This document shows positions 1,893 through 47,679 of a stretch of 47,691 bases of DNA, in pieces. Where the stretch lies: assembly GCA_013821455.1 (NCBI GenBank), contig JACDGS010000034.1:1-47691 (forward strand), in the 5' to 3' direction. The notes under the pieces are model-generated. The model worked only from the letters and a program-made list of their open reading frames with translations. It made no database searches and had not been told where the DNA came from. Source of the stretch: Chthoniobacterales bacterium. Lineage in GTDB: Bacteria; Verrucomicrobiota; Verrucomicrobiia; Chthoniobacterales; UBA10450. Made by a program: the position numbers and the translations under genes. Every line of letters starts with the position of its first letter. The first letter of the stretch is position 1.

Positions 1893-4406
1893 ATGCGCGA
1901 CGCGTTAACTCCGATGATGCAGCAATATCAGCGGCTGCGCGCGAGCGTGCCGGCTGACACCCTGCTTCTTTTCCGGTTAGGGGACTTCTACGAACTCTTT
2001 TTCGAAGACGCGAAAGAAGCTTCCGCGCTCATCAACCTCGCGCTCACCAAGCGGAACGACGTTCCGATGTGCGGCATGCCTTACCATGCCGCGCAGGGTT
2101 ACATTGCCAAACTGATCAAAGCCGGCCGCCGTGTCGCCATCTGCGATCAGACGAGCGAGCCGCAACCCGGCAAGATCGTTACTCGCGACATCACCCAGAT
2201 CATCAGCGCCGGCACGGTCAGCGACTTGGATCTTCTGGAAGCCAAACGCGCGAACTATCTCGGCGCGGTCTTCGCGGACGACGGAGTTTTCGGCCTCGCC
2301 TACGCCGACCTGACCACGGGTGAATTCCGCCTCATGCAACTAGAAAAAGAAGCGTCTGTTTTCGACGAACTCGCGCGCGTGGCCCCATCGGAACTGCTGG
2401 TGAGCGATAAGCAGGAGGCGCAATTCCGGGAGGTTCCTGGCGTGCTCGCTTACGATCATTACGCTTTTCTTCCCGAGAACGCGCGCTTCACCCTTTGCGA
2501 GCATTTCAAAGTGAAGTCGCTCGACGGCTTTGGCTGCAGTGATCTCCCGCAAGCGATCGGCGCGGCGGGCGCGATCATCCATTATTTAAAACATCAACTC
2601 CGGCGCAAGATCGATCATCTAGCCTCTCTTCGGTCTGAAGCGCCTAACGAGCACGTCGTCCTCGACGCGGCTACGCAGGCGAATCTTGAGCTCGTCAGCT
2701 CGCGCGGCGCGCGCGACACCAGCCTGCTGGCCGCTCTCGACCGCACCATCACGCCGATGGGCGGTCGCCTGTTGCGCAACTGGATTCTCCAGCCCATTCG
2801 CGATCTGCCGGAGCTGGAAAAACGCCAGCAATTCATCGCCGATCTACTCCAGGAATCCGATCTCCTCTCCTCACTGCGCACCGCTCTGCAATCGATTCGC
2901 GACTTGGAGCGCGCAGGTGGCCGCCTCGGCCAGGCGTCGGGAAATGCGCGCGATCTCGTCGCGCTCAAAATCTCGTTAGGCCAGATTCCTCAACTGAAAC
3001 GCGAGCTACAAACACTGCTTGCTCGCGTCAATTTTGGCGCCAATCAGCCTAACGGAAAGTCGACCGCGGAGACTCTCGCCCAACAACTTCAGCGCGAGCT
3101 GCGCGAAATGCCGGCGCTGGCCGCAAAATTAAATGGCGCTCTCGCGGACGATCCTCCACTCGCGCTCAAGGAAGGCGGGATTTTCCGCGACGGTTTCGAC
3201 GCGCAGTTGGACGAGTTTCGCCAGGCCTCGGGCGACGGTAAAACCTGGATCACCGAGCTGCAGGAACGGGAAATCGCCAGCACGGGCATCAAATCCTTGA
3301 AGGTCCGGTTCAATTCGGTCTTCGGATATTTCATCGAGGTTACGAAATCGAATCTGGCCAGCGTACCGGAGCGTTACACCCGCAAACAGACCACCGTCGG
3401 TGGCGAGCGTTTCATCACGCCGGAGCTGAAGGAAATGGAGGCCAAAATCCTCGGCGCCGATGAGCGCGCGCGTCATCTCGAGTACCAGCTCTTCCAAACC
3501 CTCCGTGAAGAAACGTTAGGCGAACTTGCCCCCATCCAGCAGACCGCGAGCGCGATCGCCACGCTCGACGTCCTTTGCTCGTTAGGCGAAACGGCGCGAC
3601 TCTTCCACTACTGCCGTCCTCAACTGAACGATTCCCTGCGCCTCTGCCTGAAAGACGCGCGCCATCCCGTTCTCGATCAAAATCTCGCCGAGGAAAAATT
3701 CGTGCCTAACGACACCGACCTCGACGGCGAAAAGTTGCGTCTCGCCATCATTACCGGTCCGAACATGGCCGGAAAATCCACTTACATTCGGCAAGTCGCG
3801 CTCATCACCTTGATGGCCCAGATCGGCAGCTTCGTCCCCGCGGCCAGCGCCGAGATCGGTTTGGTCGATCGTCTCTTTACTCGCGTCGGCGCGAACGACG
3901 ATCTCTCGCGCGGCCAATCCACCTTCATGGTCGAGATGAACGAGACCGCCAACATCGTCAACAACGCGACCGCGCGCAGCCTCGTCATCCTCGACGAAAT
4001 CGGCCGCGGCACCTCGACCTTCGACGGCCTCTCCATTGCCTGGAGCGTCGCGGAATTTCTGCACGACAAAATAAAAGCGCGCACGCTTTTCGCGACGCAT
4101 TATCACGAGTTGACCAAGCTCGCCGAGCAGCGAAACGGCGTGGCGAATTTTAACGTCGCCGTGCGCGAATGGAACGAACAGATCATCTTCTTGCGCAAAA
4201 TTGTTCCCGGCGGCGCTGATAAAAGTTACGGCATCCAGGTGGCGCGTCTCGCCGGGTTACCGCGGGAAATTCTCGACCGCGCGAAGGATATTCTATTGCA
4301 TTTGGAGAACCCATACGGCGCCGCCAAAAAAGCCGGCGCGACGAAAACGCGGCGTTCTCGCGAGAGGCCCCATCCGCCCCAGAAGCCTCAACTTGAACTC
4401 CTTTAA
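1893..4406 (+). CDS. mutS: DNA mismatch repair protein MutS
   Basis: MutS binds mismatched DNA and uses ATP to license repair through MutL. From the chosen ATG the protein has 837 residues, normal for MutS1. The mismatch-wedge motif is Phe32-Tyr33-Glu34 (GDFYELF), the Walker A GPNMAGKST is near residues 622-630, and the signature/Walker B run (LVILDEIGRGTSTFDG) follows, with the THYHEL motif after it. A GTG at 1857 would add 12 residues. I prefer 1893 because family members begin close to the ALTPMMQQY segment, which then starts at residue 4. Neither start has a strong ribosome site. Six exact copies of the iterated CGTTAGGC word lie inside the gene, mostly read as Ser/Thr-Leu-Gly or Pro-Asn. 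Confidence 0.97.
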   Translation: MRDALTPMMQQYQRLRASVPADTLLLFRLGDFYELFFEDAKEASALINLALTKRNDVPMCGMPYHAAQGYIAKLIKAGRRVAICDQTSEPQPGKIVTRDITQIISAGTVSDLDLLEAKRANYLGAVFADDGVFGLAYADLTTGEFRLMQLEKEASVFDELARVAPSELLVSDKQEAQFREVPGVLAYDHYAFLPENARFTLCEHFKVKSLDGFGCSDLPQAIGAAGAIIHYLKHQLRRKIDHLASLRSEAPNEHVVLDAATQANLELVSSRGARDTSLLAALDRTITPMGGRLLRNWILQPIRDLPELEKRQQFIADLLQESDLLSSLRTALQSIRDLERAGGRLGQASGNARDLVALKISLGQIPQLKRELQTLLARVNFGANQPNGKSTAETLAQQLQRELREMPALAAKLNGALADDPPLALKEGGIFRDGFDAQLDEFRQASGDGKTWITELQEREIASTGIKSLKVRFNSVFGYFIEVTKSNLASVPERYTRKQTTVGGERFITPELKEMEAKILGADERARHLEYQLFQTLREETLGELAPIQQTASAIATLDVLCSLGETARLFHYCRPQLNDSLRLCLKDARHPVLDQNLAEEKFVPNDTDLDGEKLRLAIITGPNMAGKSTYIRQVALITLMAQIGSFVPAASAEIGLVDRLFTRVGANDDLSRGQSTFMVEMNETANIVNNATARSLVILDEIGRGTSTFDGLSIAWSVAEFLHDKIKARTLFATHYHELTKLAEQRNGVANFNVAVREWNEQIIFLRKIVPGGADKSYGIQVARLAGLPREILDRAKDILLHLENPYGAAKKAGATKTRRSRERPHPPQKPQLELL

Positions 4407-4484
4407 CCAAACTCCCGCGCGGACGCGAAATTATTTCAATGACTCTCTCGCTCGGGGCGGGTAATTTCCTCCCCTCTTACACGC

Positions 4485-5900
4485 ATGGCTGTTCGAACCG
4501 AAAGAGATCTCAGCGACCTGCTCCGCGGCTACTGGTTAAAGGCCGTCGCCGCGATCGAATTGCGTAATTTTGGCTATGCCATCGAGCTGCTCGAGAATCT
4601 GCTCAAACAGGAGCCGGAGTTTTTAACCGGCCGCCAGATGCTGCGCCGTGCCGAAGTGACGCGCGCGAAGAGCGAAAAGAAAAGTTTCTTCAACATGTCG
4701 TCTTCGCCGCTCGCTGTGATGAAAGCGCAGCGCGAACTAAAGAAAGATCCGCGCAAGGCGATCGAGTTACTCGAAAAAATCCTGGAGACCGAGCCCTACA
4801 ACCAGCAGGCCAACATGCTCCTCAAAGAAGCCGCGGTAAACGCGGAGTATCCCGAGATCGCAATCTTCGCCTTGGAGACGCTGCTCGAAAACGATCCCAA
4901 GGACGTGAAAGTGATGCACGAATTAGGCCGCCTCTATCATCGCTACGAGCAGAGCGACAGGGCTGTCGAAGTTTACGGCCGCATCACAGAAATCAATCCC
5001 GCCGATCTCGAAGCGCTAAAGTTAGGCAAAGACGCGTCCGCGCGGGCTTCGATGAAAAAGGGAGGTTGGACCGAAGCGGAAAGCTACCGCGATTTGATTA
5101 AGGACAAAGAGATCGCCATCTCGCTCGAGCAACAAGGCCGCATGCAGTTAACCGGCGAATCGCTTGAACAACAAATCACCGAGACCTTCGCGCGCCACGA
5201 AGCCGAGCCGCAGAATATCGATTTCGCGAAGCGGCTCGGTTCGCTGCACGATCAAAAGGAAGATTTAGACGGCGCGATCGCCTGGTATCAATACGCGGTT
5301 GACCTGACCGAGCGGAGCGATCCCGGCCTTATTCGCAAAGTAAGCGACCTGCAAATGCGCCAACTCGAACAACGGATTCGCGAAGGTGAAGAAGCGGTCG
5401 CCACGCCGGGCAAGAACGGTGAAGGCTACGCGGAGAAGATGGCCGCGTTGGAGGAAGCGAAAAAGCAACGGGCGCAAATCCTGATCGAGGACGCGAGGAA
5501 GCGGCTCGACCGCAATCCGACCGACTTACAACTCCGTTACGAGCTGGGCGAGCACTTGACGAGTGCTGGCCTCTACCGCGACGCGCTGCCGGAATTGCAA
5601 CGCGCCCGCCAGAATCCGAATGCGCGGCTCCGAGCGATGAATTTGTTAGGCCGCTGCTATCGCGAACTCGGCATGCTCGATCTTGCCGCGAAACAACTCG
5701 ACGATGCCGCGAAAGAAATGATCACGATGGACGCGGTGAAAAAGGAAATCGTTTACAACCTCGGATTGGTTTACGAGCAGATGAGCGATGAAGCGAAATA
5801 TATCGACGCGATGAAACAGATATACGAAGTCGATTACGGCTATAGGGACGTCGCTGAGCGCGTAGAAAAATCCTACAGCCGGGCCGCAGCCGGTAGTTAG
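4485..5900 (+). CDS. Tetratricopeptide-repeat protein
   Basis: A 471-residue protein made largely of degenerate TPR helix pairs (for example the segments around AIELLENLLKQEPEF, AIELLEKILETEPYN and AVEVYGRITEINPADLEA, and again LQLRYELGEHLTSAGLYRDA near the C terminus). The middle (about residues 195-330) is charged and helical, including a Lys/Glu-rich stretch likely to be coiled coil. No signal peptide or membrane segment is evident, so it is probably a cytoplasmic scaffold. Its partner cannot be inferred. It sits 78 bases after mutS and before ftsY on the same strand. Confidence 0.85.
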   Translation: MAVRTERDLSDLLRGYWLKAVAAIELRNFGYAIELLENLLKQEPEFLTGRQMLRRAEVTRAKSEKKSFFNMSSSPLAVMKAQRELKKDPRKAIELLEKILETEPYNQQANMLLKEAAVNAEYPEIAIFALETLLENDPKDVKVMHELGRLYHRYEQSDRAVEVYGRITEINPADLEALKLGKDASARASMKKGGWTEAESYRDLIKDKEIAISLEQQGRMQLTGESLEQQITETFARHEAEPQNIDFAKRLGSLHDQKEDLDGAIAWYQYAVDLTERSDPGLIRKVSDLQMRQLEQRIREGEEAVATPGKNGEGYAEKMAALEEAKKQRAQILIEDARKRLDRNPTDLQLRYELGEHLTSAGLYRDALPELQRARQNPNARLRAMNLLGRCYRELGMLDLAAKQLDDAAKEMITMDAVKKEIVYNLGLVYEQMSDEAKYIDAMKQIYEVDYGYRDVAERVEKSYSRAAAGS

Positions 5901-5975: not shown

Positions 5976-6098
5976 TGTCATCCCGATCCGCCGTAGGACG
6001 GAGAGGGACCCCGCACCTGCAATCCTCGCGTTCCTTCTCCAGAGAACTCTGATTCCATCGAGAGGTCCCTCTCCGTGCTCCGCCGGATCGGGATGACA
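5976..6098. repeat. Palindromic intergenic element, 'tcatcccga' family, copy 1
   Basis: The element begins tgtcatcccgatccgccg and ends with the matching inverted cggatcgggatgaca, with an inner inverted pair gagagggacc / aggtccctctcc. The whole can fold into one long hairpin. It lies in the 342-base gap between the TPR gene and ftsY, which otherwise holds nothing I recognise. Five related copies occur in the window (10227, 20836, 26201, 40778, 46540). No coding capacity; probably a REP/MITE-like element. Confidence 0.8.
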
Positions 6099-6242
6099 AT
6101 GCGAGTCGCCCGCATAACCCTGCCGTCGCTGACCAGATTCTACATCTAATCCGAAGACGAGACTCGCCCCTCCCGGTTGCCACCCCCCGCCGCTCCGGCT
6201 TACCTTCCGCGCTCCTCGCAGATCGGATTGTTCTCGTTAGGC

Positions 6243-7091
6243 ATGAATTTCTTCAAGTCGCTCGTCCAAAAATTTACCGGTCGGCCCGTCGATTGGGATG
6301 AGCTGGAAGAAATGCTCATCCGCAGCGACCTGGGCGTGCCGATGAGTCTGCGCATCGTTACCGCGCTGCAGGAGCGTGCCGTGAGCCACAAGATCACCGC
6401 CCAAGACGTCGTCGAAGTCGCGCGCGAAGAAATATTGCGCGTCCTCCCGATTCAACCTGCTCCTATCCGGCCACTTCCCGCGAAACCAAAAGCGATTCTC
6501 ATCGTAGGCGTTAACGGCACGGGCAAGACGACCTCGACCGCCAAGCTCGCCGCTTATTTTCAGCGCCATCGCCACAGTGTTTTGCTCGCGGCGGCGGATA
6601 CTTTCCGCGCGGCTGCGATCGAGCAATTGGCAGTGTGGGCCGAGCGACTGAAGATCGAAATGATTCGCGGCCAATACAACGCCGATCCCGCTGCGCTTTG
6701 CTACGAAGCCTACCAGTCCGCCGAGCGCCGCGGCATCGAGTTCCTCCTTTGCGACACCGCCGGTCGGTTACACACAAAAACAAATTTAATGGGCGAGCTG
6801 GAGAAAATTAAGCGTTCGTTAGGCAAACACGATCCTGCCGCACCGCAGGAGCGACTCCTGGTGGTCGACGCCACGACCGGCAGCAATGCTCTGGCGCAGG
6901 CCCGCGAGTTCCATGCCGCCGTCGATCTCACCGGACTCATTGTGACCAAGCTAGATGGGAGTGGAAAGGGCGGCGTTGTTATCGCCATCCAGCATGAGCT
7001 CGGCATCCCGACCCGCTTCGTCGGCACGGGCGAAAAACTGGAAGATCTGGCTCCGTTCGATAGCCGCGCCTTTGTCGAACAAATGCTCTAA
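6243..7091 (+). CDS. ftsY: Signal recognition particle receptor FtsY
   Basis: FtsY is the SRP receptor GTPase that docks ribosome-nascent-chain complexes at the inner membrane. The 282-residue form has the N domain and the G domain only and lacks the long acidic A domain of enterobacterial FtsY. G1 is GVNGTGKT (89-96), followed by AADTFRAAAIEQL, the DTAGR G3 motif, TKLDGSGKGG, and the GTGEKLEDLAPF C-terminal motif. The ATG at 6243 immediately follows a CGTTAGGC copy (6235-6242). An in-frame upstream extension is proline-rich and unlike FtsY, so I exclude it. Confidence 0.95.
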   Translation: MNFFKSLVQKFTGRPVDWDELEEMLIRSDLGVPMSLRIVTALQERAVSHKITAQDVVEVAREEILRVLPIQPAPIRPLPAKPKAILIVGVNGTGKTTSTAKLAAYFQRHRHSVLLAAADTFRAAAIEQLAVWAERLKIEMIRGQYNADPAALCYEAYQSAERRGIEFLLCDTAGRLHTKTNLMGELEKIKRSLGKHDPAAPQERLLVVDATTGSNALAQAREFHAAVDLTGLIVTKLDGSGKGGVVIAIQHELGIPTRFVGTGEKLEDLAPFDSRAFVEQML

Positions 7092-7311
7092 AGAGCGGTT
7101 GGTCAGCTCCTATACTCGTTAGGCTAGACCTTGGCCCTGCGCGTTTGGGACGCCCGCCGATCTTAGTCACAGGAAATCATAATTGACGATTGCTCAAAAT
7201 CCGCTCATAGGCAGAACACGTGGGAACGATCCGCGCTTTCCTGGCTACCCGTAAAGTCATCAACCAAAGGAAAGCGACGAAGTATCTCTGGCGACTCGGG
7301 GAGAACTCATT

Positions 7312-8070
7312 GTGAACGCTCTCCCCGTGGCCGCGATTTCATTCGCCTGCGTCTTCGGCGCCGCCCTCCTCGGCTTCCTCCTGCGCAGCGCGATCCCGGA
7401 GGAACACCTCAGCGACCAGACCAAGGACGTAGTGAAGCTCTCGATGGGCTTGGTCGCGACTATGACCGCGCTTATTCTGGGCCTGCTCGTCGCCTCCGCG
7501 AAAGACGCCTACGACGCCAAAAAAGCGGAGACGCTGCAGATGGCCGCTCGGATCGCTTACCTTGACCGCGGTTTGGCTAACTACGGGCCTGAAACGGCGG
7601 GCTCGCGCGCACTCCTCCGCGAGATCGTTGAACGGATGATTGCGAAGCTATGGCCAGATTCGGACTCCGCGATAGACCTGCGGGACGATCTGAGCGGCTT
7701 CCGCGGCGCGCAGCTTTATGACTCCATCCAAAAGTTATCGCCGGCGAACGATCTCCAGCGCTCTCTCAAATCCCAAGCTCTGACCGCGACCGGCGACCTC
7801 GGCCAAATGCGCTGGCTGCTGGCCGAGCAGGGCGGCAGCTCCATCTCCACTTCCCTGCTCATCATCGTTGTCTCGTGGTTGGCTATTCTCTTTCTTAGCT
7901 TCGCCCTCTTTGCGCCGCCTAACGCTACAGTTATCGCCGCTCTCATGATCGCCTCGTTGTCCGTCTCCGGCGGAATTCTACTCATCCTTGAGTTAGACCG
8001 TCCCTTTGATGGCTTTATCAAAATCTCTAGCGAACCTATGCGCCATACTCTGACTTATCTTGCTCACTAA
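7312..8070 (+). CDS. DUF4239 (bestrophin-like) membrane protein
   Basis: A 252-residue membrane protein with a GTG start. Hydrophobic segments lie near residues 5-27, 45-64, 184-205 and 208-228, with a soluble, mostly helical middle of about 110 residues. The second segment, LSMGLVATMTALILGLLVASAKDAYD, and the overall two-plus-two topology match DUF4239, a family described as bestrophin-like but without an established role. It is preceded by a 220-base gap containing one CGTTAGGC copy in a TATACTCGTTAGGCT context (7111). Confidence 0.78.
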   Translation: MNALPVAAISFACVFGAALLGFLLRSAIPEEHLSDQTKDVVKLSMGLVATMTALILGLLVASAKDAYDAKKAETLQMAARIAYLDRGLANYGPETAGSRALLREIVERMIAKLWPDSDSAIDLRDDLSGFRGAQLYDSIQKLSPANDLQRSLKSQALTATGDLGQMRWLLAEQGGSSISTSLLIIVVSWLAILFLSFALFAPPNATVIAALMIASLSVSGGILLILELDRPFDGFIKISSEPMRHTLTYLAH

Positions 8071-8175
8071 GAGCCGGCTCACTGAACTATACTCGTTAGG
8101 CTGCTCACTGTGCGCTCCGACAGGTTAGCATGCTTCCTTGCCGTCCGTCGGCTTCGGCTTTCCTGGTTTTCTTCC

Positions 8176-8568
8176 TTATGTGGCAATGGAGTGCCAAAGT
8201 TCCCAGAGATTGCCTTCGGGATCGGCAAAGTAAGCCGTTCTTCGCCCCCACGACTGGCTTATTGGCGGTTTGATGAAGATAACCCCCTTGTCCGTTAATG
8301 CCTTATAGGTCTCATCGACATCCTTGACCCCTGCACACAAGAGCATCGTATGACTAACCTCGCGTTGCAGCGCCAACGCTTCCTCACTTACCATTTGCGC
8401 AGCGGCAGATATATCCAGTAGGACGAAATCCTGATCCTCCAACCGGAGGCCATCAGAATGAGTATCGCTGAACGTGACCGGAAGCCCGAGAGTGTCCCGA
8501 TAAAACGCCATACACTTTGCCCGATCCCGCACAAACAGCACGACCGCATCAACCCTGCGAATTAACAT
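8176..8568 (-). CDS. VOC-family (glyoxalase/bleomycin-resistance fold) protein
   Basis: A 130-residue protein with the paired beta-alpha-beta-beta-beta modules of the vicinal oxygen chelate superfamily. The first module begins with VDAVVLFVRDRAKCMAFYRDTLGLPV and the second ends with the typical AYFADPEGNLWEL, whose Glu is the usual metal ligand. Members range from lyases and dioxygenases to drug-binding proteins, so the substrate cannot be named. It converges on the DUF4239 gene. Confidence 0.85.
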   Translation of the reverse strand: MLIRRVDAVVLFVRDRAKCMAFYRDTLGLPVTFSDTHSDGLRLEDQDFVLLDISAAAQMVSEEALALQREVSHTMLLCAGVKDVDETYKALTDKGVIFIKPPISQSWGRRTAYFADPEGNLWELWHSIAT

Positions 8569-8950
8569 CTGTCATCCTTCCATGTCGCCAAAGCTTCAGC
8601 CACATCATTTTTCGAATCGTTAGGTTAAGTAATGAAAAGCATGGGAGAATATGAGTGCTGAATCCTCTCCGACGTGTGACTTCCTGGCCATAAAGCGATG
8701 CCGGCTTGGAAGGTCTATTACCTGGCAGAGCAGGATGTGCATAGCCTAACCCTTCGCATTCCTTCTCTTCCCTTACGCCTCCCGACATTACTCGGGGTTC
8801 CAACACTAATCACGCTCGCTACATCGGGTTAGCCCAACCTTTCTCTTGACCTGCCGCCGGGCCGGCCTAGCGTGCCCGCAAGCTCGTCTGGAACCGGGTG
8901 GCGCTCGATAAGGTGTCGAGCGCAACAGGGAAATAAGGAGGTTCTGATAT
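8569..8950. other. 382-base non-coding gap with a strong Shine-Dalgarno site
   Basis: No convincing gene was found here. Two degenerate copies of the iterated word occur (CGTTAGGT near 8628 and GCCTAACC near 8744). At its right end an AAGGAGG at 8935-8941 sits 9 bases before the ATG at 8951, one of the best ribosome sites in the window, which fixes the start of the next gene. The gap must hold promoters for one or both divergent genes, but I could not place them with confidence. Confidence 0.55.
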
Positions 8951-10162
8951 ATGAGAGCGTTTCATTGTGTCGCAGTAGCGGGTTTACTCGGGCTAATCTT
9001 AGGTGGCCCAGTGCGGGCGCAGGATGGCACTTGCGCGGGAATTGATCTGGGGCAGGAGGCAAATCTTCACGGATTCATCCCCTTCCCGCCCGATAACGCC
9101 TGGAATACCGACATCTCGGCCTTGCCGGTCGATCCCAACTCGGCTAACTATATCTCGTTCATCGGCGCAACCTCGCCGCTGCATCCTGACTTCGGCTCCG
9201 GCCTCTATGCTGGGAGTTCCATCGGCATTCCCTACCAGGTCGTGGACTCCACTCAGCCAAAAGTCCCGATTAAGATTGTCCTTTATAAGAATGAGTCTGA
9301 TCCGGGGCCAATGCCTATCCCGGCCAATGCACTCATCGAAGGTTATCCTAAACCAACCGGCGATCGCCATGTCCTGGTCTTGGATAAGGATGGCTGTTGG
9401 CTCTACGAGTTATACCACTCCTTTCTCAAACATGGCTTATGGCAGGCTGATTCCACCGCTATCTGGGATATGACTATCAACGAACAACGCCCTTACACCT
9501 GGACTTCGGCCGACGCGGCCGGGCTGGCTATTTTCCCGGGGCTGGTGCGTTACGATGAAGTCGCGGCGGGTGCAATCAATCACGCCATCCGTATCACGGT
9601 CCCGGTGACACGCGAAGCCTTTACTTTGCCGGCCACGCATTGGGCGTCATCAAATACGGATCCGAATGCGCCACCCATGGGTCTGCGCCTGCGCTTAAAG
9701 TCCAGCGTCAACCTGACCGGGTTTCCACCTAACGACCAGGTCATCCTCACCGCGCTTCAGAAATACGGCGCGATCATTGCCGATAACGGAAGCGCGATGT
9801 TCATCAGTGGAGCGCCGAACGATAGCTGGAATAACGATGAGTTGGCACTTATCGAGTCACTAAAAGGATCGGACTTCGAAGTAGTAATGTCAGGGCCCAT
9901 CTATACACCGACCAATGTGCCGACTGGCCCGAAGCCGACTCTCTCCAGCCTGGTCGCTAACCCTTCCTCGATCAGCGCCGGCCAATCCTCCACTCTCACT
10001 TGGAATGTCGCGAACACCATCTATACCATCGTCTCACCGGAGATAGGGCCGGTCCGCGGCACGAGTGCGATCGTAAAGCCGGCGATAACGACGACCTATA
10101 AGGTTTACGCGACTAATCAATACGGCCGCACGACTAAGTCAGTGACAGTAACTGTGCAATAA
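8951..10162 (+). CDS. Secreted protein of unknown function with a C-terminal Ig-like domain
   Basis: 403 residues with a clear signal peptide (MRAFHCVAVAGLLGLILGGPVRAQ, cleavage after about residue 24). The mature part (about 25-320) is a conserved domain that I recognise from soil bacteria but cannot assign to a reaction; landmarks are FPPDNAWNTDI, AAGLAIFPGLVRYDEVAAG and INHAIRITVP. The last about 75 residues (PTLSSLVANPSSISAGQSSTLTW onward) form a bacterial immunoglobulin-like domain, common in exported surface or carbohydrate-active proteins. The AAGGAGG site supports the start. It opens the accessory block. Confidence 0.82.
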   Translation: MRAFHCVAVAGLLGLILGGPVRAQDGTCAGIDLGQEANLHGFIPFPPDNAWNTDISALPVDPNSANYISFIGATSPLHPDFGSGLYAGSSIGIPYQVVDSTQPKVPIKIVLYKNESDPGPMPIPANALIEGYPKPTGDRHVLVLDKDGCWLYELYHSFLKHGLWQADSTAIWDMTINEQRPYTWTSADAAGLAIFPGLVRYDEVAAGAINHAIRITVPVTREAFTLPATHWASSNTDPNAPPMGLRLRLKSSVNLTGFPPNDQVILTALQKYGAIIADNGSAMFISGAPNDSWNNDELALIESLKGSDFEVVMSGPIYTPTNVPTGPKPTLSSLVANPSSISAGQSSTLTWNVANTIYTIVSPEIGPVRGTSAIVKPAITTTYKVYATNQYGRTTKSVTVTVQ

Positions 10163-10226
10163 CTCTCTGATCAAACTGCGTTTGGAAGTCGATGAAGGAA
10201 GCCATCCCATCAAAACCCTCGAGCGT

Positions 10227-10338
10227 GCCATCCCTAGCTGGCGAGGGACCTCGCAAGCGTCTTTCGGCGCAATTTCCAAAACGACATCTCCCGAACGCTT
10301 GCGGGGTCCTTCGCCGTGCTCCGCCGGCTCAGGATGAC
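10227..10338. repeat. Palindromic intergenic element, 'tcatcccga' family, diverged copy 2
   Basis: A decayed copy: the left arm (tgccatccctagctgg) has drifted while the right arm (ccgccggctcaggatgaca) is typical. An inner inverted pair, cgcaagcgt / acgcttgcg, is well kept. It lies between the secreted protein gene and the cupin gene. Confidence 0.65.
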
Positions 10339-10430
10339 AAATATCTAGTTATGCGATGGCTCGAGAGGTCAACAATTAAAGTTGTCTCACTCGGCGCGAA
10401 TCGCTATACCTATGACATAGACTAACTGTG

Positions 10431-10892: not shown

Positions 10893-11012
10893 ATCACCTA
10901 TTGCCATCCGGAAGACGATCCGCGCCGCGCGAAAGAGCCGCACCACTAACCGGATGTCCGGCCCCAAGAGATAGTGCACTGACTTAGACTCGTTAGGGAA
11001 ACAGCGCAGCAG

Positions 11013-11574: not shown

Positions 11575-11611
11575 GCTCAGCCACCAGTAAGAATCGAGGG
11601 ACGTTCAGCTT

Positions 11612-11755: not shown

Positions 11756-11787
11756 AACGCTCAGCACACTTCAAGCGATACGGATCA

Positions 11788-35107: not shown

Positions 35108-35131
35108 GTTTCCGACTCGTTAGGCTGACAC

Positions 35132-36649: not shown

Positions 36650-36678
36650 CTGGACGCCAGCGCTTCGTCCTTTGTTCG

Positions 36679-38042: not shown

Positions 38043-38045
38043 TCG

Positions 38046-39687: not shown

Positions 39688-40671
39688 CTATTTCCGGCCG
39701 GCCCCGCTGGTGTTAGCCGGTGAACGATGCTGCTGATAGGCGTTAATAATGGCGCGGACCAGCTCGTGCCTAACGACATCTCGATCGGTAAAGTAAGCGA
39801 AGCCAATGCCCGAAATGTCTTTCAGCGCCTGAAGCGCCTCGAGAAGGCCGGAGCGTTTGTTAGGCGGAAGGTCGATCTGCGTTCCGTCACCAGTGACGAC
39901 ACATTTTGAGCGCGGCCCTATGCGCGTGAGAAGCATGAACATTTGCTCGCGGGTAGTGTTCTGCGCTTCGTCGAGGATAACAAAAGCATTACTTAGGGTC
40001 CGCCCGCGCATGTAGGCGAGCGGCGCGATCTCAATGGTTTCGCGCGCGACGAAGCGTTCCAACTCTTCCGGTTCCAGCATGTCATGCAGCGCATCGTAAA
40101 GCGGGCGCAGATACGGGGTAATCTTTTGTTGTAAGTCACCGGGCAAAAAGCCTAAGGCTTCGCCGGCTTCCACTGCTGGCCGGGTAAGAATGATGCGATC
40201 GACTTGTTCTTTCTTTAATGCTGAGACTGCCATGGCGACGGCGAGATAAGTCTTACCCGTGCCGGCAGGTCCTATTCCGAAAACGATGTCATGAGTCTGG
40301 ATCGCTTCCAGATAATGACGCTGCCCTAACGTGCGCGCGACGATCGGCGGCTTGCGCGCCGAAGTCACAATCTTCGTCGCAACCAGGTCATCGAGATTAT
40401 CGGGCCGGGCTTCACTCACGGAATTGAGCGCGTAGTTAAATTCATGGCGCTGAATGTCCACGCCGCGCTGCCGGGCGCTCTCCAATTGATTGAAAACGCT
40501 TTCGGCCTTTTCAATTTGTGCGGGCTCGCCCTCGATTCGGATCCAGCCATCGCGGGTGGTGACTTTCACGCCTAACGACTCTTCGAGGTTCTTGAGCAAT
40601 TTTAGATCGTGCGCGTGCAGCGCCTGCACGGCGCGCGCGTTTTCAAATTGAAGCGTGCGCGTTTCAGTCAT
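39688..40671 (-). CDS. phoH: PhoH-family ATPase
   Basis: 327 residues from ATG 40671. A KH-like N-terminal region is followed by the PhoH ATPase domain: Walker A GPAGTGKTYLA, Walker B AFVILDEAQNTT, and VTGDGTQIDLP. PhoH/YbeZ proteins act in RNA metabolism beside YbeY. The pgpH-like gene follows after 4 bases, the order seen in many bacteria (phoH-pgpH-ybeY). Here the third place is taken by a purine nucleoside phosphorylase and no ybeY is visible. Confidence 0.93.
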   Translation of the reverse strand: MTETRTLQFENARAVQALHAHDLKLLKNLEESLGVKVTTRDGWIRIEGEPAQIEKAESVFNQLESARQRGVDIQRHEFNYALNSVSEARPDNLDDLVATKIVTSARKPPIVARTLGQRHYLEAIQTHDIVFGIGPAGTGKTYLAVAMAVSALKKEQVDRIILTRPAVEAGEALGFLPGDLQQKITPYLRPLYDALHDMLEPEELERFVARETIEIAPLAYMRGRTLSNAFVILDEAQNTTREQMFMLLTRIGPRSKCVVTGDGTQIDLPPNKRSGLLEALQALKDISGIGFAYFTDRDVVRHELVRAIINAYQQHRSPANTSGAGRK

Positions 40672-40777: not shown

Positions 40778-40926
40778 TGTCATCCTGAGCGAAGCGTAGC
40801 GGAGTCGGAGGATCCCGCGGAGTTGACGTGAAGGTGCGCTGCGGATTCTCCGGATCGTCGCTTCAAGGTTTCCCCACGGGATCCCTCGACTTCGTTCCGC
40901 TTTCGCTCCACTCCGCTCGGGATGAC
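40778..40926. repeat. Palindromic intergenic element, 'tcatcccga' family, copy 5
   Basis: tgtcatcctgagcgaagcgtag at the left is mirrored by ccactccgctcgggatgac at the right, with ggatcccgcgg / ccacgggatccctcgac inside. It is the longest copy in the window (149 bases) and fills half of the 303-base gap upstream of phoH; the remainder shows nothing else. Confidence 0.85.
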
Positions 40927-41431: not shown

Positions 41432-42226
41432 CTATTGGAGGCGCGTCACGATGCCTTCATCCAGGCGGCTTGTGATTTGGTTGATCTTTTTCACCGAGGC
41501 CGCCGAGATCGGGTTGTCGGTCTCGATGATTGGTTTTACTTCCACCAGAGAACTTCGAATCTGCCCCAAAAGCGGGACGTGGAATTCCGCCATGTTCGCT
41601 AATTTGCGCTGAAAATATTCGAGCAGGTCCGGCTGGTGCAGCAACTCCGCACCGTCTACTGAAAAGTGCCGGTCGACCACGGCGGTAAGAACCTCAGTGC
41701 CCCGGAGCCAGCCGCCCAGACTAACGAGTTGGGAAAGCTTCTCATCGTGCACTTCGTTCATCGCCTGCTGCACACTGTTCTGGGTGCGGTCGAGTTCGTT
41801 GCGCACCTCGACCCAATCCCGCCGGTCCGCCGCCTCGGTGATCGCCTTCGCGTGAGGCACGATGGAATTACCAACGCCGATCCCTTTGGCCAGCCTCACG
41901 ACGCGCTGACCGATTTCGCGCACACTGGGCGCGTCCTCCGCCTGCACCGCGATGAACCCGTCCGCGATCGTCGCCCCGAGGAGCAGCGCGATCCGCGGCC
42001 GCTCCGTGAAATTGGTGCCCTTATTCGTGCGCACGAACTCTTTCCAATTCACGCTGTCCAGCTTGTTCAGCGCGCCGAAGATTTCGTTAGGCAACGGCAC
42101 CACGACGTCCTCGACGGTCTTCGAAAGACGCTTCACGTCGATGTGCTTCGGCACCTCCGCGGCCTGCGCCGAAGCCAGCGAAAAAACGCAACTGCCTACC
42201 AAAGTTAGTTTAAAGAAAGATCTCAT
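41432..42226 (-). CDS. Exported helical protein of unknown function
   Basis: 264 residues: signal peptide MRSFFKLTLVGSCVFSLASAQA, then an all-helical body without a recognised family. Segments RIALLLGATIADGFIAVQAED and GGWLRGTEVLTAVVDRHFS look conserved in style. Together with the following exported protein it forms a two-gene periplasmic unit. A CGTTAGGC copy (42085) is read in the protein as Pro-Asn. Confidence 0.78.
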   Translation of the reverse strand: MRSFFKLTLVGSCVFSLASAQAAEVPKHIDVKRLSKTVEDVVVPLPNEIFGALNKLDSVNWKEFVRTNKGTNFTERPRIALLLGATIADGFIAVQAEDAPSVREIGQRVVRLAKGIGVGNSIVPHAKAITEAADRRDWVEVRNELDRTQNSVQQAMNEVHDEKLSQLVSLGGWLRGTEVLTAVVDRHFSVDGAELLHQPDLLEYFQRKLANMAEFHVPLLGQIRSSLVEVKPIIETDNPISAASVKKINQITSRLDEGIVTRLQ

Positions 42227-42387: not shown

Positions 42388-43395
42388 ATGAAGCCGGAAC
42401 GTCTGCGCGAAATTCTCAGCCGCGCTGCGAGCAAACGCATCACGGTCATCGGCGATTTGATGCTCGATGAGTTCGTTTGGGGAAAGGTCGGGCGCATCTC
42501 GCCGGAAGCGCCGGTGCCAGTAGTCGAGGTCACCGGCGAAACGTTTTATCCGGGCGGAGCGGCGAATGTTGCGCGAAATCTGCGCGAGTTTATCGCCGGG
42601 GTTTCGGTCATCGGCATGGTCGGCCCTGATGCCAGCGGCCAACAGCTTCTCGGGCTCCTGCGCGAAGAAAAAATCGACACTGCGCTCACGGTGGAAGACC
42701 CGGCTTATCGGACCATCGTGAAGACGCGCATCGTCGCGCGAAACCAACAAGTGGTGCGAGTCGATCGCGAACAATTCCGCGAACCGAGTCCCGCGCAGCT
42801 CGAACAAACCTCGAGCGCTCTCAAGCGTCTCCTGCCGCAGCTCGATGCCGTAATTTTCGAGGACTATGGCAAAGGGTTTCTGAGTGCTGCGCTCGTCAGG
42901 CAACTCTCCGGTGAAGTAGGTGCCGCCGGCAAAATCGCCACCGCCGATCCGAATCCGCGGCAGGCGCTGGCCTGGAAAAACATGACCGCAGTCAAACCGA
43001 ACCGCGCCGAAGCGCTCGCCGCCGCTGGTTTGGCTTCGGCCGACCCGATCGATCCACCGATGGAAGATGCGGCGCTGTTGCAAGCGGGCGCGCGTCTGCT
43101 CGAGGCTTGGGACACGCGCTTGCTCCTCGTCACGCTCGGCGAACAAGGCATGATGCTTTTCGAACGGGGAAAATCGCCGCACCATATCCCCACAAAAGCG
43201 CGCCAGGTTTTCGACGTTTCCGGCGCGGGCGACACCGCGATCGCCTTATTCACTCTGGCGCTCTGCTGCGACGCCGCGCCGATCGAGGCCGCGGAGATTG
43301 CCAATCACGCGAGCGCGGTTGTGGTCGCGAAACTCGGCACGGCCACGGTAACGCCAGCGGAATTGAGCGCGAGTTTCGAAGATGATTGTGCCTAA
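42388..43395 (+). CDS. hldA: D-glycero-beta-D-manno-heptose-7-phosphate kinase
   Basis: 335 residues of the PfkB/ribokinase family: VIGDLMLDEFVWGKVGRISPEAPVPVV, the HldE-kinase signature, and FYPGGAANVARNL for sugar binding, with the catalytic GAGDTAIA anion hole near residue 278. It phosphorylates heptose-7-phosphate for ADP-heptose, used in the LPS inner core. It corresponds to the kinase half of HldE (RfaE1) only, so the adenylyltransferase must be elsewhere. It overlaps gmhB by 14 bases. Confidence 0.93.
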   Translation: MKPERLREILSRAASKRITVIGDLMLDEFVWGKVGRISPEAPVPVVEVTGETFYPGGAANVARNLREFIAGVSVIGMVGPDASGQQLLGLLREEKIDTALTVEDPAYRTIVKTRIVARNQQVVRVDREQFREPSPAQLEQTSSALKRLLPQLDAVIFEDYGKGFLSAALVRQLSGEVGAAGKIATADPNPRQALAWKNMTAVKPNRAEALAAAGLASADPIDPPMEDAALLQAGARLLEAWDTRLLLVTLGEQGMMLFERGKSPHHIPTKARQVFDVSGAGDTAIALFTLALCCDAAPIEAAEIANHASAVVVAKLGTATVTPAELSASFEDDCA

Positions 43396-43936
43396 CGAAT
43401 CGGTCCCGGCGGTTTTTCTCGACCGTGACGGCACTCTCATGGAGGAGGTAAATTACTGCTCCGATCCGAAGCAGGTAAAGGTGTTCCCTGGCGTCCCCGG
43501 GGCACTGGAACGAATGAAAGCGCGTGGCTACAAGCTGATCGTCATTTCCAATCAAGCGGGAATCGGACGCGGTTATTTCACCGAAGAACAATATCGCGCG
43601 GTCGAAGCCGAGCTCGCGCGCGCCATCCTGCCGGCAACCCTCGACGCCACCTATTTTTGTCCCGATCACCCTGACCGCCCCACCAATCGGCGCAAGCCGG
43701 CGCCGGGAATGGTGCTAGAAGCGCAACGCGATCACAGAATCGACTTGGCGCGCTCGTTTTTCATCGGCGACAAAGCGATCGACATCGAGTGCGGGCGAAA
43801 CGCAGGTGTACGCACGATCCTGGTGAAAACCGGCTACGGCGCGAACGAACATGCGCAATCCGGCGCGAATTGGATCGCGGAAGATCTGCGCGAAGCCGCC
43901 GCAATCGTGCTGCGCGAAAGCGATCCAGTTGCCTAA
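43382..43936 (+). CDS. gmhB: D-glycero-beta-D-manno-heptose-1,7-bisphosphate 7-phosphatase
   Basis: 184 residues of the HAD superfamily. The nucleophile motif is FLDRDGTLMEEVNY; VISNQAGIGRGYF and FIGDKAIDIECGRNAG are the later HAD motifs. It removes the C7 phosphate of heptose bisphosphate made by the kinase upstream. The zinc loop of E. coli GmhB (CxH...CxC) is incomplete: CPDHPD is present, but RPTNRRKPAPGM lacks the two later Cys, so zinc binding is probably lost, as in some other GmhB proteins. The TAA stop is in GCCTAACA, one base from the iterated word. Confidence 0.93.
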   Translation: MIVPNESVPAVFLDRDGTLMEEVNYCSDPKQVKVFPGVPGALERMKARGYKLIVISNQAGIGRGYFTEEQYRAVEAELARAILPATLDATYFCPDHPDRPTNRRKPAPGMVLEAQRDHRIDLARSFFIGDKAIDIECGRNAGVRTILVKTGYGANEHAQSGANWIAEDLREAAAIVLRESDPVA

Positions 43937-44167: not shown

Positions 44168-44920
44168 ATGATAAAAGCCGTCGGCCTCATTCCCGCACGC
44201 TGGGGCTCGACGCGTTTCCCGGGGAAGCCATTGCATATTATCGCCGGAAAACCTCTCCTCCAGCACGTTTGGGAACGCTGCCGGTGCGCGAAAACACTCG
44301 CCGCCGTCATCATCGCGACCGACGACATGCGCATCGCCGAGGCTGCATTTTCATGGGGCGCGGAAGTCAGCCTAACGAGTCCGAAACACCGCAGCGGCAC
44401 CGATCGCATCGCCGAGATCGCGCGAAAAATGCGCGGCGTCTCGCACGTCCTGAACATCCAGGGCGACGAACCGCTGGTCGATCCGACGCTGCTCGATCGA
44501 CTCGTTAGGCAAATGCAAAACCGGCCGGAAATCGAGATGATCACCGCCGCCCATCCCTTCGAAAATCCGGCCGACGCGCAGTCGCCACACCAGGTCAAAG
44601 CGGTCTTCGACCGCCACGGGCACGCTCTCTATTTTTCCCGCAGTCCGATCCCTTTCGCGCGCGGATCCGCGAACTATTTTCGCCACCAGGGCATCTACGG
44701 CTACCGGCGCGAAACCCTGCTTCGCTTCGTCCGCTGGCAACCTTCGCCGCTCGAAAGAGCGGAAGCCCTCGAACAATTGCGCGCCTTGGAGAATGGCGTA
44801 AAGATTCATGTAGTTGTGACCCGAAGCGGCTCACCCGGAGTCGACACGCCGGCCGACGCGCGCGCGCTCGAACTTCAGCTCGCTTCGCCCTCCCGGTCGC
44901 GTCCGAGGCATCCCCGATGA
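44168..44920 (+). CDS. kdsB: 3-deoxy-manno-octulosonate cytidylyltransferase
   Basis: 250 residues. It activates KDO as CMP-KDO for lipid A core assembly. The nucleotide loop is LIPARWGSTRFPGKPL, followed by IATDDMRIAEAA, SGTDRIAEIA and VLNIQGDEPLVDP with the metal-binding aspartate. The ATG follows a 231-base gap with the palindromic element. It overlaps pyrG by 4 bases (ATGA); the kdsB-pyrG pairing links CTP supply with CMP-sugar synthesis. Confidence 0.95.
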   Translation: MIKAVGLIPARWGSTRFPGKPLHIIAGKPLLQHVWERCRCAKTLAAVIIATDDMRIAEAAFSWGAEVSLTSPKHRSGTDRIAEIARKMRGVSHVLNIQGDEPLVDPTLLDRLVRQMQNRPEIEMITAAHPFENPADAQSPHQVKAVFDRHGHALYFSRSPIPFARGSANYFRHQGIYGYRRETLLRFVRWQPSPLERAEALEQLRALENGVKIHVVVTRSGSPGVDTPADARALELQLASPSRSRPRHPR

Positions 44921-46515
44921 AATATATTTTTGTAACTGGTGGCGTGGTCAGTTCGTTAGGCAAAGGCCTTGCGGCGGCATCGTTAGGCACGCTCCTCGAG
45001 TTGCGCGGTCAGCGCGTGCTCCTGCAAAAATTCGACCCCTACTTGAACGTCGATCCCGGCACGATGAACCCGTTTCAACACGGCGAAGTTTACGTCCTGA
45101 ACGACGGCGCTGAGACCGATCTCGACCTCGGTCATTACGAGCGTTTCACCAATTGCGTCCTCTCGCGCAACAACAACCTGACGAGTGGCCAGGTGTACGA
45201 GACCGTCATCTTGAAAGAACGCCGCGGCGACTATCTCGGCAATACCGTGCAGGTCATTCCGCACGTCACGGACGAGATCAAGGCGCGCATCCGCCAAGTC
45301 GCCGATCCGGAAAAAGTCGACGTCGTCATCACTGAAATCGGCGGAACCACGGGCGACATCGAAGGGCTGCCCTTCCTCGAAGCGATCCGGCAATTCATTC
45401 TCGAAGTCGGCCCGCAAAACGTCGTGAACATGCACGTCACGCTCGTGCCTTTCATCCGCGCGGCCGGCGAACTGAAGACGAAACCGACCCAGCAAAGCAT
45501 CGCGAAATTGCGCGAAATCGGGTTGCAGCCGCAGGTGCTGCTCTGCCGCACCGAGCACGCGCTCGACAACGACGTTAGGCAAAAGCTTTCCATGTTTTGC
45601 AACGTCGGGATGAACGCCGTCATCGAGGCGCGCGACGTGCCGCACACGATCTACGAGATGCCGCTCATGCTGCACGAGGAAGGTCTCGACTCGTTAGTCT
45701 GCGAGCTGCTGCAACTCGGTTGCCCCACGCCCGACCTAACGAATTGGCGAAAATTTGTCGGCCGCGTCGTCAATCCCAAGAAGCAGGTCAAGATCGCGGT
45801 CGTCGGCAAATACATCGAGCTGCAGGATGCCTACAAAAGCATTTACGAATCGCTTACCCACGCCGCGGCGCAGCACGATTGCGGCATCGACTTGCGGCTG
45901 ATCGACGCCGAGTCGCTCGAGAACGGCGTCGATGGCCAGCTCAAAGATGTCGCCGGTGTTTTGATTCCGGGCGGCTTCGGGGAACGCGGGGTCGAAGGGA
46001 AAATCCGCGCGGCGCAATTCGCCCGGGAAAACAAAGTGCCTTATCTCGGCCTCTGCCTCGGGATGCAGGTCGCGACGATCGAGTTCGCGCGCAACGTCTG
46101 CGGCATCGCGGGCGCGAACAGCATTGAGTTCGACGAAGGCTCGGCCGACCCGGTCATCTGCCTGCTCGACGAGCAGCGCAACATCCAGCGCAAAGGCGGG
46201 AGCATGCGTCTCGGCACCTGGCCGACGAAAATCGTTAGGGGAACGCTCGCCGAAAAAGTTTACGGGCACGAGGAAGTGCTGGAGCGACATCGGCACCGCT
46301 ACGAATTCAACATGAAATATCGCGACCAGATGATGGAAAAAGGCTTTCTCATCAGCGGCACTTCACCCGACGGATCGCTCGCGGAATTGATCGAACTGCG
46401 GGATCATCCATGGTTTTTGGCGTGCCAGTATCATCCGGAATTCCAGAGCAAGCCGAACAAGCCGCACCCTCTTTTTAGCGGCTTCATCCGCGCGAGTCTC
46501 GCGCATCAGGATTAG
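44917..46515 (+). CDS. pyrG: CTP synthase
   Basis: 532 residues. The N-terminal synthetase domain starts YIFVTGGVVSSLGKGLAAASLGTLL with the P-loop-like motif, and EIGGTTGDIEGLPF follows. The C-terminal glutaminase domain has the nucleophile cysteine in LGLCLGMQVA and the His-Glu pair in ACQYHPEFQSKP. It makes CTP from UTP with glutamine nitrogen. Two copies of CGTTAGGC lie 19 bases apart in the first motif and encode both Ser-Leu-Gly runs. Confidence 0.97.
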   Translation: MKYIFVTGGVVSSLGKGLAAASLGTLLELRGQRVLLQKFDPYLNVDPGTMNPFQHGEVYVLNDGAETDLDLGHYERFTNCVLSRNNNLTSGQVYETVILKERRGDYLGNTVQVIPHVTDEIKARIRQVADPEKVDVVITEIGGTTGDIEGLPFLEAIRQFILEVGPQNVVNMHVTLVPFIRAAGELKTKPTQQSIAKLREIGLQPQVLLCRTEHALDNDVRQKLSMFCNVGMNAVIEARDVPHTIYEMPLMLHEEGLDSLVCELLQLGCPTPDLTNWRKFVGRVVNPKKQVKIAVVGKYIELQDAYKSIYESLTHAAAQHDCGIDLRLIDAESLENGVDGQLKDVAGVLIPGGFGERGVEGKIRAAQFARENKVPYLGLCLGMQVATIEFARNVCGIAGANSIEFDEGSADPVICLLDEQRNIQRKGGSMRLGTWPTKIVRGTLAEKVYGHEEVLERHRHRYEFNMKYRDQMMEKGFLISGTSPDGSLAELIELRDHPWFLACQYHPEFQSKPNKPHPLFSGFIRASLAHQD

Positions 46516-46539
46516 CGGCCTAACGAGAGCGTTCAATTC

Positions 46540-46688
46540 CGTCATCCCGAGCGGAGTGTAGCGGAGCGGAACGAAGTCGAGAGATCCCGTGGCGCGAGTT
46601 TGAAGAGAAACCCGCGAGAAGCGCCTTCGAGCTTCACGGAAACGCGACGGGATCCTTCGACTCCGCTCCGCTCCGCTCAGGATGACGG
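46540..46688. repeat. Palindromic intergenic element, 'tcatcccga' family, copy 6
   Basis: cgtcatcccgagcggagtg at the left is mirrored by ccgctcaggatgacgg at the right, with gagatcccgtggcg / cgacgggatcc inside. It fills nearly the whole 183-base gap between the convergent pyrG and sua5 genes and is bracketed by GCCTAACG copies at 46518-46525 and 46697-46704. Confidence 0.85.
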
Positions 46689-46698
46689 AAGGTGCCGC

Positions 46699-47679
46699 CT
46701 AACGATGCGCGGCGCGGCGCAGGCGATCCATGATCGCCATGCCCAGACCGATCTCGGGAACTGCTTCGGCGACGATGAGGTCGAGTCCCGCGCCATCCAA
46801 CTCGCGCAGAACGCGAAATAAATTCGCCGCCGCCTCTCGCAAATTCCGCGTCGCGCTTAAGCGGCGTTTCGCGACGAAATCTCGCGGAGCGTCCTCGCTG
46901 CTCCAAAGCAGCGCGCCGTAACGCTTTTCGTTAGGCACGGTGATCTGCGCAACGTCGTCCGCGAGCAGGAGCGGCGTGCGTGGCGCGTAATGCGACGGCA
47001 ACTGCCCCGGCGCTTCCGGGCGCAGCGCGTTTCCCGCGACGCGATGAATTTCACCAAACTCCGCGAGCTGTTCCCGCGTGATGGGGCCGGCGCGCATGAT
47101 GATCATTCCATTTTTCTCCGGCCTAACGATGGTCGATTCGACGCCGTGTTCCGTCGCGCCGCCATCCACGATGAGCGGAATGCGTCCGGCCAATTCCTCG
47201 AAGACGTGCTCTGCCATGGTCGGGCTGATCCGACCGAAACGGTTGGCGCTCGGGGCGGCAAGCGGGCGATCGAGGTCGCGCACGATTTCGGAGAAGATCG
47301 GATGCGCGCTCATCCGCACTGCGACCGTCGTTAGGCCAGCGGTGACGATTTCTGGAATCAGGCTCGTCTTCGGGAGCAGAATCGTTAGGGGACCGGGCCA
47401 GAAGTTTTCGGTTAACTTTTCCACCAGCGCGGAGGTCGTAGCTACTCGCGGAAGCCAGGAAAAATCTGGCAAATGGACAATAAGTGGATCGAAGCGCGGA
47501 CGCTCCTTTGTTTCGAAAATCTTCGCCACTGCTTCGAGTGAAAGCGCGTCGGCGGCGAGGCCGTAAACAGTCTCCGTGGGCAACGCCACCACTTCACCCG
47601 CGCGGAGCAGGGCGAGCGCACGCGAGATCGCGTGCGCGCGCTCGTTAGGCGTAGCGGCCGGCGCGATGACCGTTTTCAC
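46699..47679 (-). CDS. sua5: L-threonylcarbamoyladenylate synthase, Sua5 type
   Basis: 326 residues. The YrdC domain has VVALPTETVYGLAADAL, KERPRFDPLIVHL, the WPGPLTILLP block and LAAPSANRFGRISPT. The C-terminal Sua5 domain follows from about residue 215 (PGQLPSHYAPRTPLLL). It makes threonylcarbamoyl-AMP for the t6A tRNA modification. The TAG stop (46699-46701) is read from the GCCTAACG/CGTTAGGC word. The gene is complete, with its ATG 12 bases from the right edge. Confidence 0.95.
   Translation of the reverse strand: MKTVIAPAATPNERAHAISRALALLRAGEVVALPTETVYGLAADALSLEAVAKIFETKERPRFDPLIVHLPDFSWLPRVATTSALVEKLTENFWPGPLTILLPKTSLIPEIVTAGLTTVAVRMSAHPIFSEIVRDLDRPLAAPSANRFGRISPTMAEHVFEELAGRIPLIVDGGATEHGVESTIVRPEKNGMIIMRAGPITREQLAEFGEIHRVAGNALRPEAPGQLPSHYAPRTPLLLADDVAQITVPNEKRYGALLWSSEDAPRDFVAKRRLSATRNLREAAANLFRVLRELDGAGLDLIVAEAVPEIGLGMAIMDRLRRAAHR

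Follow-up and report, generated by a model that had tools for sequence, protein, structure and literature searches.

A short non-palindromic word repeated thousands of times in a Chthoniobacterales genome is a candidate DNA uptake sequence with two dialects in one family

Why should one short word recur along both strands of a stretch of bacterial DNA, far more often than its base composition would predict? The question is raised by the stretch analysed here in full (the window; 47,691 nucleotides, contig JACDGS010000034.1 of a Chthoniobacterales bacterium), in which a first-pass annotation, made from the letters alone, had noticed an 8-base core, CGTTAGGC, mostly extended to TCGTTAGGC, and had likened it to a DNA uptake sequence. 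Our analysis suggests that TCGTTAGGC is probably just that, the uptake sequence of a Chthoniobacterales lineage capable of natural transformation, and that it is one of two dialects, the other being the word TGTCGATCTT.

Recounting the window returned the same totals and span as first reported: CGTTAGGC, the most frequent 8-mer of the window, occurs 33 times on the forward and 35 times on the reverse strand between positions 2642 and 47650. The bulk of these extend to TCGTTAGGC, as had been stated, with an exact count of 55 of the 68 (29 forward and 26 reverse) in place of about 56. In the whole host genome (G000; 4,302,014 bp in 117 contigs, of which the window is contig 49) there are 2299 forward and 2306 reverse copies of TCGTTAGGC, or about 1.07 per kb, as against 29 + 33 = 62 copies of the reversed word, which served as a control. 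A sample of this genome, consisting of the window and 20 further stretches (two of them all N; 369,923 unmasked bases), holds 465 copies where a third-order Markov model expects 8.5; a fourth-order model expects 49, because it absorbs part of the word. The excess is therefore neither close to the Markov expectation nor confined to this contig. When the 7- to 10-mers of the sample were ranked by z-score, TCGTTAGGC was the top 9-mer, and the top 7-, 8- and 10-mers were pieces or extensions of it. Its one-base variants number 0-29 copies apiece, strictness is highest in the inner GTTAG and lowest at the ends, and the flanks are nearly information-free, with weak preferences at most, so that a longer motif concealed in them was rejected. 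Both TCGTTAGGC and TGTCGATCTT are non-palindromic, each differing from its own reverse complement. The over-representation is thus confirmed, and is stronger than first claimed.

The equal use of both orientations seen in the window holds genome-wide, and the 16 stretches with at least five words fit a 1:1 strand ratio (chi-square 20.4, 16 df, p 0.20). Nor did orientation correlate with GC skew, our proxy for replication direction in the draft contigs of G000 (rho -0.13, p 0.63). With 291 genes called in the sample by a simple gene caller, genes contain 328 of the 465 words and spacers 109, and another 28 fall across gene edges; density is higher in spacers, some of which may contain missed genes, than in genes (1.63 versus 1.08 per kb, p 4e-4). 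The four stop-free frames hold 88, 59, 81 and 100 words, the remaining two being unused inside genes because they carry a stop codon. Across these four frames and both strands the encoded peptides are SLG, VR, LT and PN[DE]. Over short distances, spacing in the sample is near exponential; gaps of 1.5-2 kb are under-represented (14 versus 28.3 expected) and gaps above 5 kb over-represented (7 versus 0.5 expected), a pattern that word-poor segments would produce.

Comparison of reciprocal-best orthologues, with other 9-mers as controls and peptide-identical sites scored separately, showed that TCGTTAGGC is held at fixed silent positions across genera. At peptide-identical sites the word was identical in 11 of 15 cases from G000 to G001 and 11 of 12 in reverse, and in 12 of 13 and 12 of 12 between G000 and G014, against 18% of controls for either pair. 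For TGTCGATCTT the corresponding figures were 6 of 8 and 6 of 6 between G014 and G016, and 4 of 7 and 4 of 4 between G014 and G009, with controls at 17%. Six of these eight comparisons were tested, giving p from 0.02 (the 4 of 7) to 1e-9, where the two directions of an orthologue pair are not independent. When the peptide condition was dropped, TCGTTAGGC was kept at 14/27, 14/18, 15/36 and 15/30 sites against 6.5-9.2% of controls, and small comparisons kept the word at 2/3 (G005), 1/4 (G003), 1/4 (G004) and 1/6 (G010) sites. None of the G000 sites of TCGTTAGGC was kept in G016 (0/25), G007 (0/12) or G006 (0/12), where controls would give 4-5%, and the TGTCGATCTT sites of G014 were kept at 0/55 in G000 and 1/23 in G007. 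Within mutS, the TCGTTAGGC site at window positions 3704-3712 carries the word in 12 of 23 aligned genes, spanning several genera; at each of two further sites, TGTCGATCTT is present in 6 of 23.

How far does the word extend among relatives? Protein similarity places the host in the Chthoniobacterales near Candidatus Udaeobacter, itself a member of that order according to NCBI. The window's MutS shares 77-79% identity with its counterparts on contigs from Candidatus Udaeobacter sp. AEW3 and from the Verrucomicrobia bacteria AV86 and AV72; the other loci that it matched reach at most 63%, the nearer ones being mostly Verrucomicrobiota. As its identity to other genera of the host's own family (f1) is 76-80% over alignments of more than 640 residues, AEW3, AV86 and AV72 probably belong to f1 or close by. 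Their loci (17-23 kb each) contain 0-1 copies of TCGTTAGGC each, and these organisms are therefore not word-rich. Comparison with related genomes, a check proposed in the first-pass annotation, found high density within f1 only. Whole-genome counts across 83 genomes and 14 genera of this family exceed 1,400 copies in seven genomes: g1 (1410-4605, five genomes), g2 (2147) and g11 (1802). Intermediate counts occur in g3 (177-481, seven genomes), g7 (94-587, eight), g8 (277) and g10 (194), and the remainder are g5 (42-469, 35 genomes), g14 (111-222, six), g6 (82-134, four), g12 (204), g9 (133), g13 (60) and g4 (19-95, 11 genomes). Twenty-one genomes from the order's other families have 1-30 copies. 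A survey of 288 genomes across the phylum gave 0-133 copies in the 285 outside f1, the highest, in ascending order 61, 75 and 133, all coming from one genus (f18/g63; genomes G239, G242 and G251) and the next at most 29-30. In an 80-kb sample of G242, TCGTTAGGC was absent and k-mers resembling attC, the integron recombination site, led the list, so the excess in this genus possibly reflects integrons. High density of TCGTTAGGC is confined to one family.

That family has two phylogenetically coherent dialects, the second of which is not visible from the window and formed no part of the first reading. K-mer counts made without a prior word gave 196 copies of TGTCGATCTT in 120 kb of G014 (1.5 expected) and 474 in 276 kb (3.2 expected), and 43 in 138 kb of G016 (0.9 expected). 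At least 500 copies are present in 15 of the 83 f1 genomes: whole-genome counts are 4653 in G014, 996-1509 in g6 (four genomes), 1070 in g9, 760 in g13, 715 in g12, 147-1016 in g14 and 74-755 in g5, and are low in g1 (19-29) and g3 (9-22). The flanks of TGTCGATCTT show preferences for W before the core, GC after it and G at -5. G014 carries both words, interleaved (1802 TCGTTAGGC and 4653 TGTCGATCTT). For a MutS tree, 30 genomes were searched, two gave no match and five fragmentary sequences were left out. In the resulting single-gene FastTree phylogeny of 22 f1 genomes and one outgroup, the support values of which were not printed, the TGTCGATCTT genomes group in a single clade, to which g4 is adjacent, and all TCGTTAGGC-rich genomes except G014 fall outside this clade; G005 (g2) gave no MutS match and is hence unplaced. 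The simplest history would make TCGTTAGGC ancestral and TGTCGATCTT a later replacement.

One-base variants of TCGTTAGGC bear on how such a replacement might proceed. Their excess over the Markov expectation per perfect copy is about 0.76 in G014 versus about 0.18 in G000, and a single variant, TTGTTAGGC, accounts for 58 of the 226 present in 276 kb of G014, a sample with 195 perfect copies (counted over loci L127-L132, L224-L227 and L256-L260), so both decay and a sub-dialect are possible origins for it. In a small sample of G009, six perfect copies were accompanied by one variant where 6.1 were expected, a deficit that fits simple decay poorly. Samples of G007 (g4) had no dominant word. When one genome each of families f3, f6, f7, f9 and f18 was screened for other words (48-90 kb per genome), none matched TCGTTAGGC or TGTCGATCTT in both count and excess; the standouts were GAGGATTT in G042 (38 versus 8.1 expected) and ATTTTGGAT in G044 (7 versus 0.2), together with attC-like words in the lists of G038 and G242.

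Is the machinery for DNA uptake encoded? A search for ComEC and type IV pilus genes, also proposed at first pass, found them in the host and in relatives devoid of either word. ComEC turned up in all 14 genomes tried, DprA and T2SSE-family ATPases in 11 of 11 each, and prepilins in 8 of 8. G000 encodes two adjacent proteins above the PilT/PilU cut-off, a DprA above its own cut-off, a PilC/GspF-like protein and pilins. These competence and type IV pilus genes would permit uptake and are no proof of it. Three pilins were compared with PDB sequences, two matching pilins through their N-terminal part and one weakly. Seven genomes yielded 64 reading frames that look pilin-like, some of them spurious, and three of their orthogroups were met only in G000 and G005; coverage was incomplete, and we therefore claim no link between pilin and dialect. 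One protein of the host, at L254:7699-8583 on the reverse strand, joins a staphylococcal-nuclease-like (SNase) domain to a ComEA-like helix-hairpin-helix (HHH) domain behind an N terminus that looks signal-like by eye, and could combine DNA binding with strand cutting during uptake.

We therefore favour a model in which one of the pilins of a retractile type IV pilus would bind the word in free DNA, so that word-bearing DNA from kin would be drawn in preferentially, pass through ComEC, be protected by DprA and recombine; the biased import of word-bearing alleles would in turn accumulate and preserve the words. A change of receptor specificity in one clade may then have begun the replacement of TCGTTAGGC by TGTCGATCTT. 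The uptake reading of the first-pass annotation has gained from density, non-palindromy, strand and frame use, silent-site conservation, restriction to one family, the dialects and the machinery, and it is still one that we infer. We also lean towards a broader proposition, that the whole f1 family practises sequence-specific sex with independently evolved words, that one clade switched from TCGTTAGGC to TGTCGATCTT with all stages still alive (TCGTTAGGC only, both words, TGTCGATCTT with relics of TCGTTAGGC, and neither), and that the receptor is a pilin of a new class, one that binds DNA sequence-specifically. If so, uptake words arose independently in another phylum and a dialect replacement has been caught under way; the question of drive versus selection becomes testable on 83 genomes; a lineage close to one of the soil's most abundant groups has been shaped by biased transformation; and word-tagged DNA offers a handle for genetic access to it.

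Several observations weigh against uptake. Only 7 of 11 genomes yielded the ComEA-type HHH_3 domain; word-rich G005 was not among them, and in G000 the domain occurs as the fusion to an SNase domain. The G000 ComEC scores 168.5 bits, below the NCBIfam equivalog cut-off of 190.05 and above that of Pfam, and the PilB/GspE-like ATPase scanned there falls below both equivalog cut-offs. Most machinery genes are also found in relatives without either word, so their presence does not discriminate, and no pilin was tied to a word among the orthogroups of the seven genomes. Peptide-conserved words are few, 4-15 per comparison. The two words are nearly unrelated, sharing by eye TCG.T alone, unlike the dialects of Neisseriaceae, which keep a CTG core (PMC3630211; this and most other papers cited here are drawn on in part). 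Inverted pairs of uptake words acting as terminators are reported for Neisseriaceae and Pasteurellaceae (PMC13020248, in the parts considered), unlike the G000 sample, where close inverted pairs of TCGTTAGGC show no excess: neighbours less than 60 bp apart comprise 14 reverse-reverse, 9 forward-reverse, 8 forward-forward and 6 reverse-forward pairs, 37 in total versus about 35 expected. Inverted-pair terminators were accordingly rejected for this word.

Other processes might also enrich a word. The main competitor to uptake, which we judge unlikely, is a methylation-linked iterated word akin to the highly iterated palindrome HIP1 of cyanobacteria, in which a methyltransferase, with mismatch repair or some other process, would bias the creation or retention of words, two words implying two methyltransferases. 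The usual sites of methyltransferases are shorter than the 9-10 contiguous bp of TCGTTAGGC and TGTCGATCTT. In favour of this reading, TGTCGATCTT contains GATC. Words of the HIP type occur at about 500-2500 per Mb, may be supplanted by alternate words and have one-base deviations clustered at their ends (PMC4390886), much as the ends of TCGTTAGGC vary most. Those named in the parts of the source drawn on here are palindromes, unlike either of our words, and have matching methyltransferases (PMC4390886). Somewhat more doubtful still is another self-marking or gene-conversion drive, for instance one in which a nuclease or a restriction-like system leaves word-bearing DNA uncut or copies it. The pattern demands that some strong sequence-specific bias favour the word, and this bias need not act at uptake; no candidate gene system turned up, none having been searched for, and uptake has a known precedent. 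That TCGTTAGGC is short, frequent, non-palindromic and dense in the core genes of the window would also suit a Chi-like recombination hotspot or a chromosome-organising signal such as the FtsK-orienting polar sequences (KOPS) or a nucleoid-protein site. Signals of this type are usually skewed with replication, whereas the strands here stand at 2299:2306, the 16 stretches tested together fit 1:1 and GC skew does not predict orientation in the draft contigs; an enrichment of about 50-fold and the substitution of an unrelated word within one family argue further that this explanation is improbable.

Two remaining possibilities have next to nothing to recommend them overall. Selection on RNA or protein, or an effect of codon usage, might be suspected from the roughly 70% of words that lie wholly inside called genes, and would then have to account for words in four frames on both strands, for spacers that are denser than genes, and for the lack of excess in the reversed word and in other families. 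Integron attC sites, whose ends (core GTTAGGC) share letters with TCGTTAGGC, or another dispersed repeat element came to mind because six copies lie 409-637 bp apart on one strand of G038 in an apparent cassette array. In G000, however, pairs within 160 bp take the order GCCTAAC...GTTAGGC less often than its reverse (21 versus 35), core genes contain words on both strands, and the flanks show no extended repeat; an integron origin was rejected. The array in G038, from another family of the order, is itself of note, with six attC-like sites in L296 (G038:C7) at 6047-8651.

Returning to the window, exact matches place the words as follows. In mutS, TCGTTAGGC lies at 2642-2650 (reverse), 2973-2981 (forward), 3579-3587 (forward, shared with G001) and at the reverse-strand site 3704-3712 discussed above, and the core CGTTAGGC without extension to TCGTTAGGC at 3047-3054 (reverse) and 3514-3521 (forward). 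The kynureninase gene holds TCGTTAGGC at 26528-26536 (forward) and the core only at 27247-27254 (reverse), trpD holds TCGTTAGGC at 27789-27797 and 28556-28564 (both reverse), and pyrG holds it at 44953-44961 and 44980-44988 and the core only at 45573-45580 (all forward). The other forward copies of TCGTTAGGC are at 6234-6242, 6816-6824, 7116-7124, 8093-8101, 13117-13125, 21432-21440, 25113-25121, 25554-25562, 26182-26190, 29106-29114, 31560-31568, 33079-33087, 34117-34125, 35117-35125, 35604-35612, 35688-35696, 36676-36684, 37382-37390, 38043-38051, 42084-42092, 44502-44510, 46928-46936, 47328-47336 and 47642-47650. Those on the reverse strand are at 13759-13767, 18760-18768, 24875-24883, 29549-29557, 30224-30232, 30388-30396, 30573-30581, 31619-31627, 31857-31865, 32401-32409, 32561-32569, 33653-33661, 33873-33881, 34390-34398, 37470-37478, 39768-39776, 40570-40578, 43390-43398, 44370-44378, 46518-46526, 46697-46705 and 47121-47129. 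Further unextended cores lie at 25820-25827 and 33849-33856 (forward) and at 7917-7924, 20495-20502, 24012-24019, 25782-25789, 30513-30520, 30814-30821 and 31201-31208 (reverse).

One part of the window, 8200-24000, has five core words in 15.8 kb (0.32 per kb) against 63 elsewhere in the window (1.98 per kb); the stretch was picked post hoc, and none of 5000 random placements left a comparably empty 15.8 kb. It is a candidate for a recently acquired or accessory segment, and perhaps was acquired. Its longest word gap (8092-13116) has a GC content below the rest of the window, and the stretch encodes Rieske oxygenase-like and FAD-dependent halogenase-like proteins, both below family cut-offs. 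The window also contains a dispersed element resembling repetitive extragenic palindromes or miniature inverted-repeat transposable elements, starting GTCATCC[C/T]GAG, at 20837-20952, 26202-26304, 40779-40916 and 46541-46676, with copies inverted about 100-140 bp apart. It recurs at L094, L095, L098, L100-L102, L104, L106 and L107; its word GTCATCCCGAG has 21 copies in 370 kb of G000, and related k-mers occur in G005 and G006.

How does TCGTTAGGC compare with what has been described? We found no literature joining uptake sequences to natural transformation in Verrucomicrobia, in a search for which subscription journals and preprints were mostly out of scope, so that absence from print is not established; among the titles examined for the letters of TCGTTAGGC, none had genome words as its topic. 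A paper on Ca. Udaeobacter makes no mention of DNA uptake, competence, transformation or type IV pili (PMC7343977). Abundant soil bacteria, including Verrucomicrobia, showed recombination in 19 populations, with D' at its lowest where ComEC is grouped with further recombination genes (PMC7305173, in part). Uptake words are named in the Neisseriaceae and Pasteurellaceae (PMC13020248, PMC12616744, PMC3630211), and with these two families alone in the parts of the sources considered, it is hard to judge whether special circumstances create such words.

Integron attC sites carry the letters GTTAGGC and resemble TCGTTAGGC to that extent; the host genome differs in having no excess of paired R''-R' sites and in having words in core genes on both strands. 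HIP1 and the alternate HIPs are alike in the comparable density of iterated words and in their replacement elsewhere by others, and unlike in being palindromic and co-occurring with methyltransferases (PMC4390886, in part). Among uptake words proper, type IV pili and ComEC mediate uptake of the DNA uptake sequence (DUS) in Neisseriaceae, and the uptake signal sequence (USS) of Pasteurellaceae has a density of about one per kb, with AT-rich flanking segments. Such segments are weak at most around TCGTTAGGC and somewhat clearer around TGTCGATCTT, and the USS belongs to a different phylum and is unrelated in sequence. Even so, it too has a 9-bp core and two dialects, Hin and Apl, within one family (PMC12616744, PMC13020248), and its receptor is predicted to be the minor pilin ComN/PpdA (PMC12616744, each in part). 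The DUS likewise differs in sequence and phylum, and a receptor like its ComP was not found for TCGTTAGGC. In the portions of PMC3630211 considered, it nonetheless shares thousands of copies of a non-palindromic word (10-12 bp for the DUS), dialects that follow phylogeny, family members without an obvious word and, in Simonsiella muelleri with 2257 and 2292 copies, a single genome carrying two dialects.

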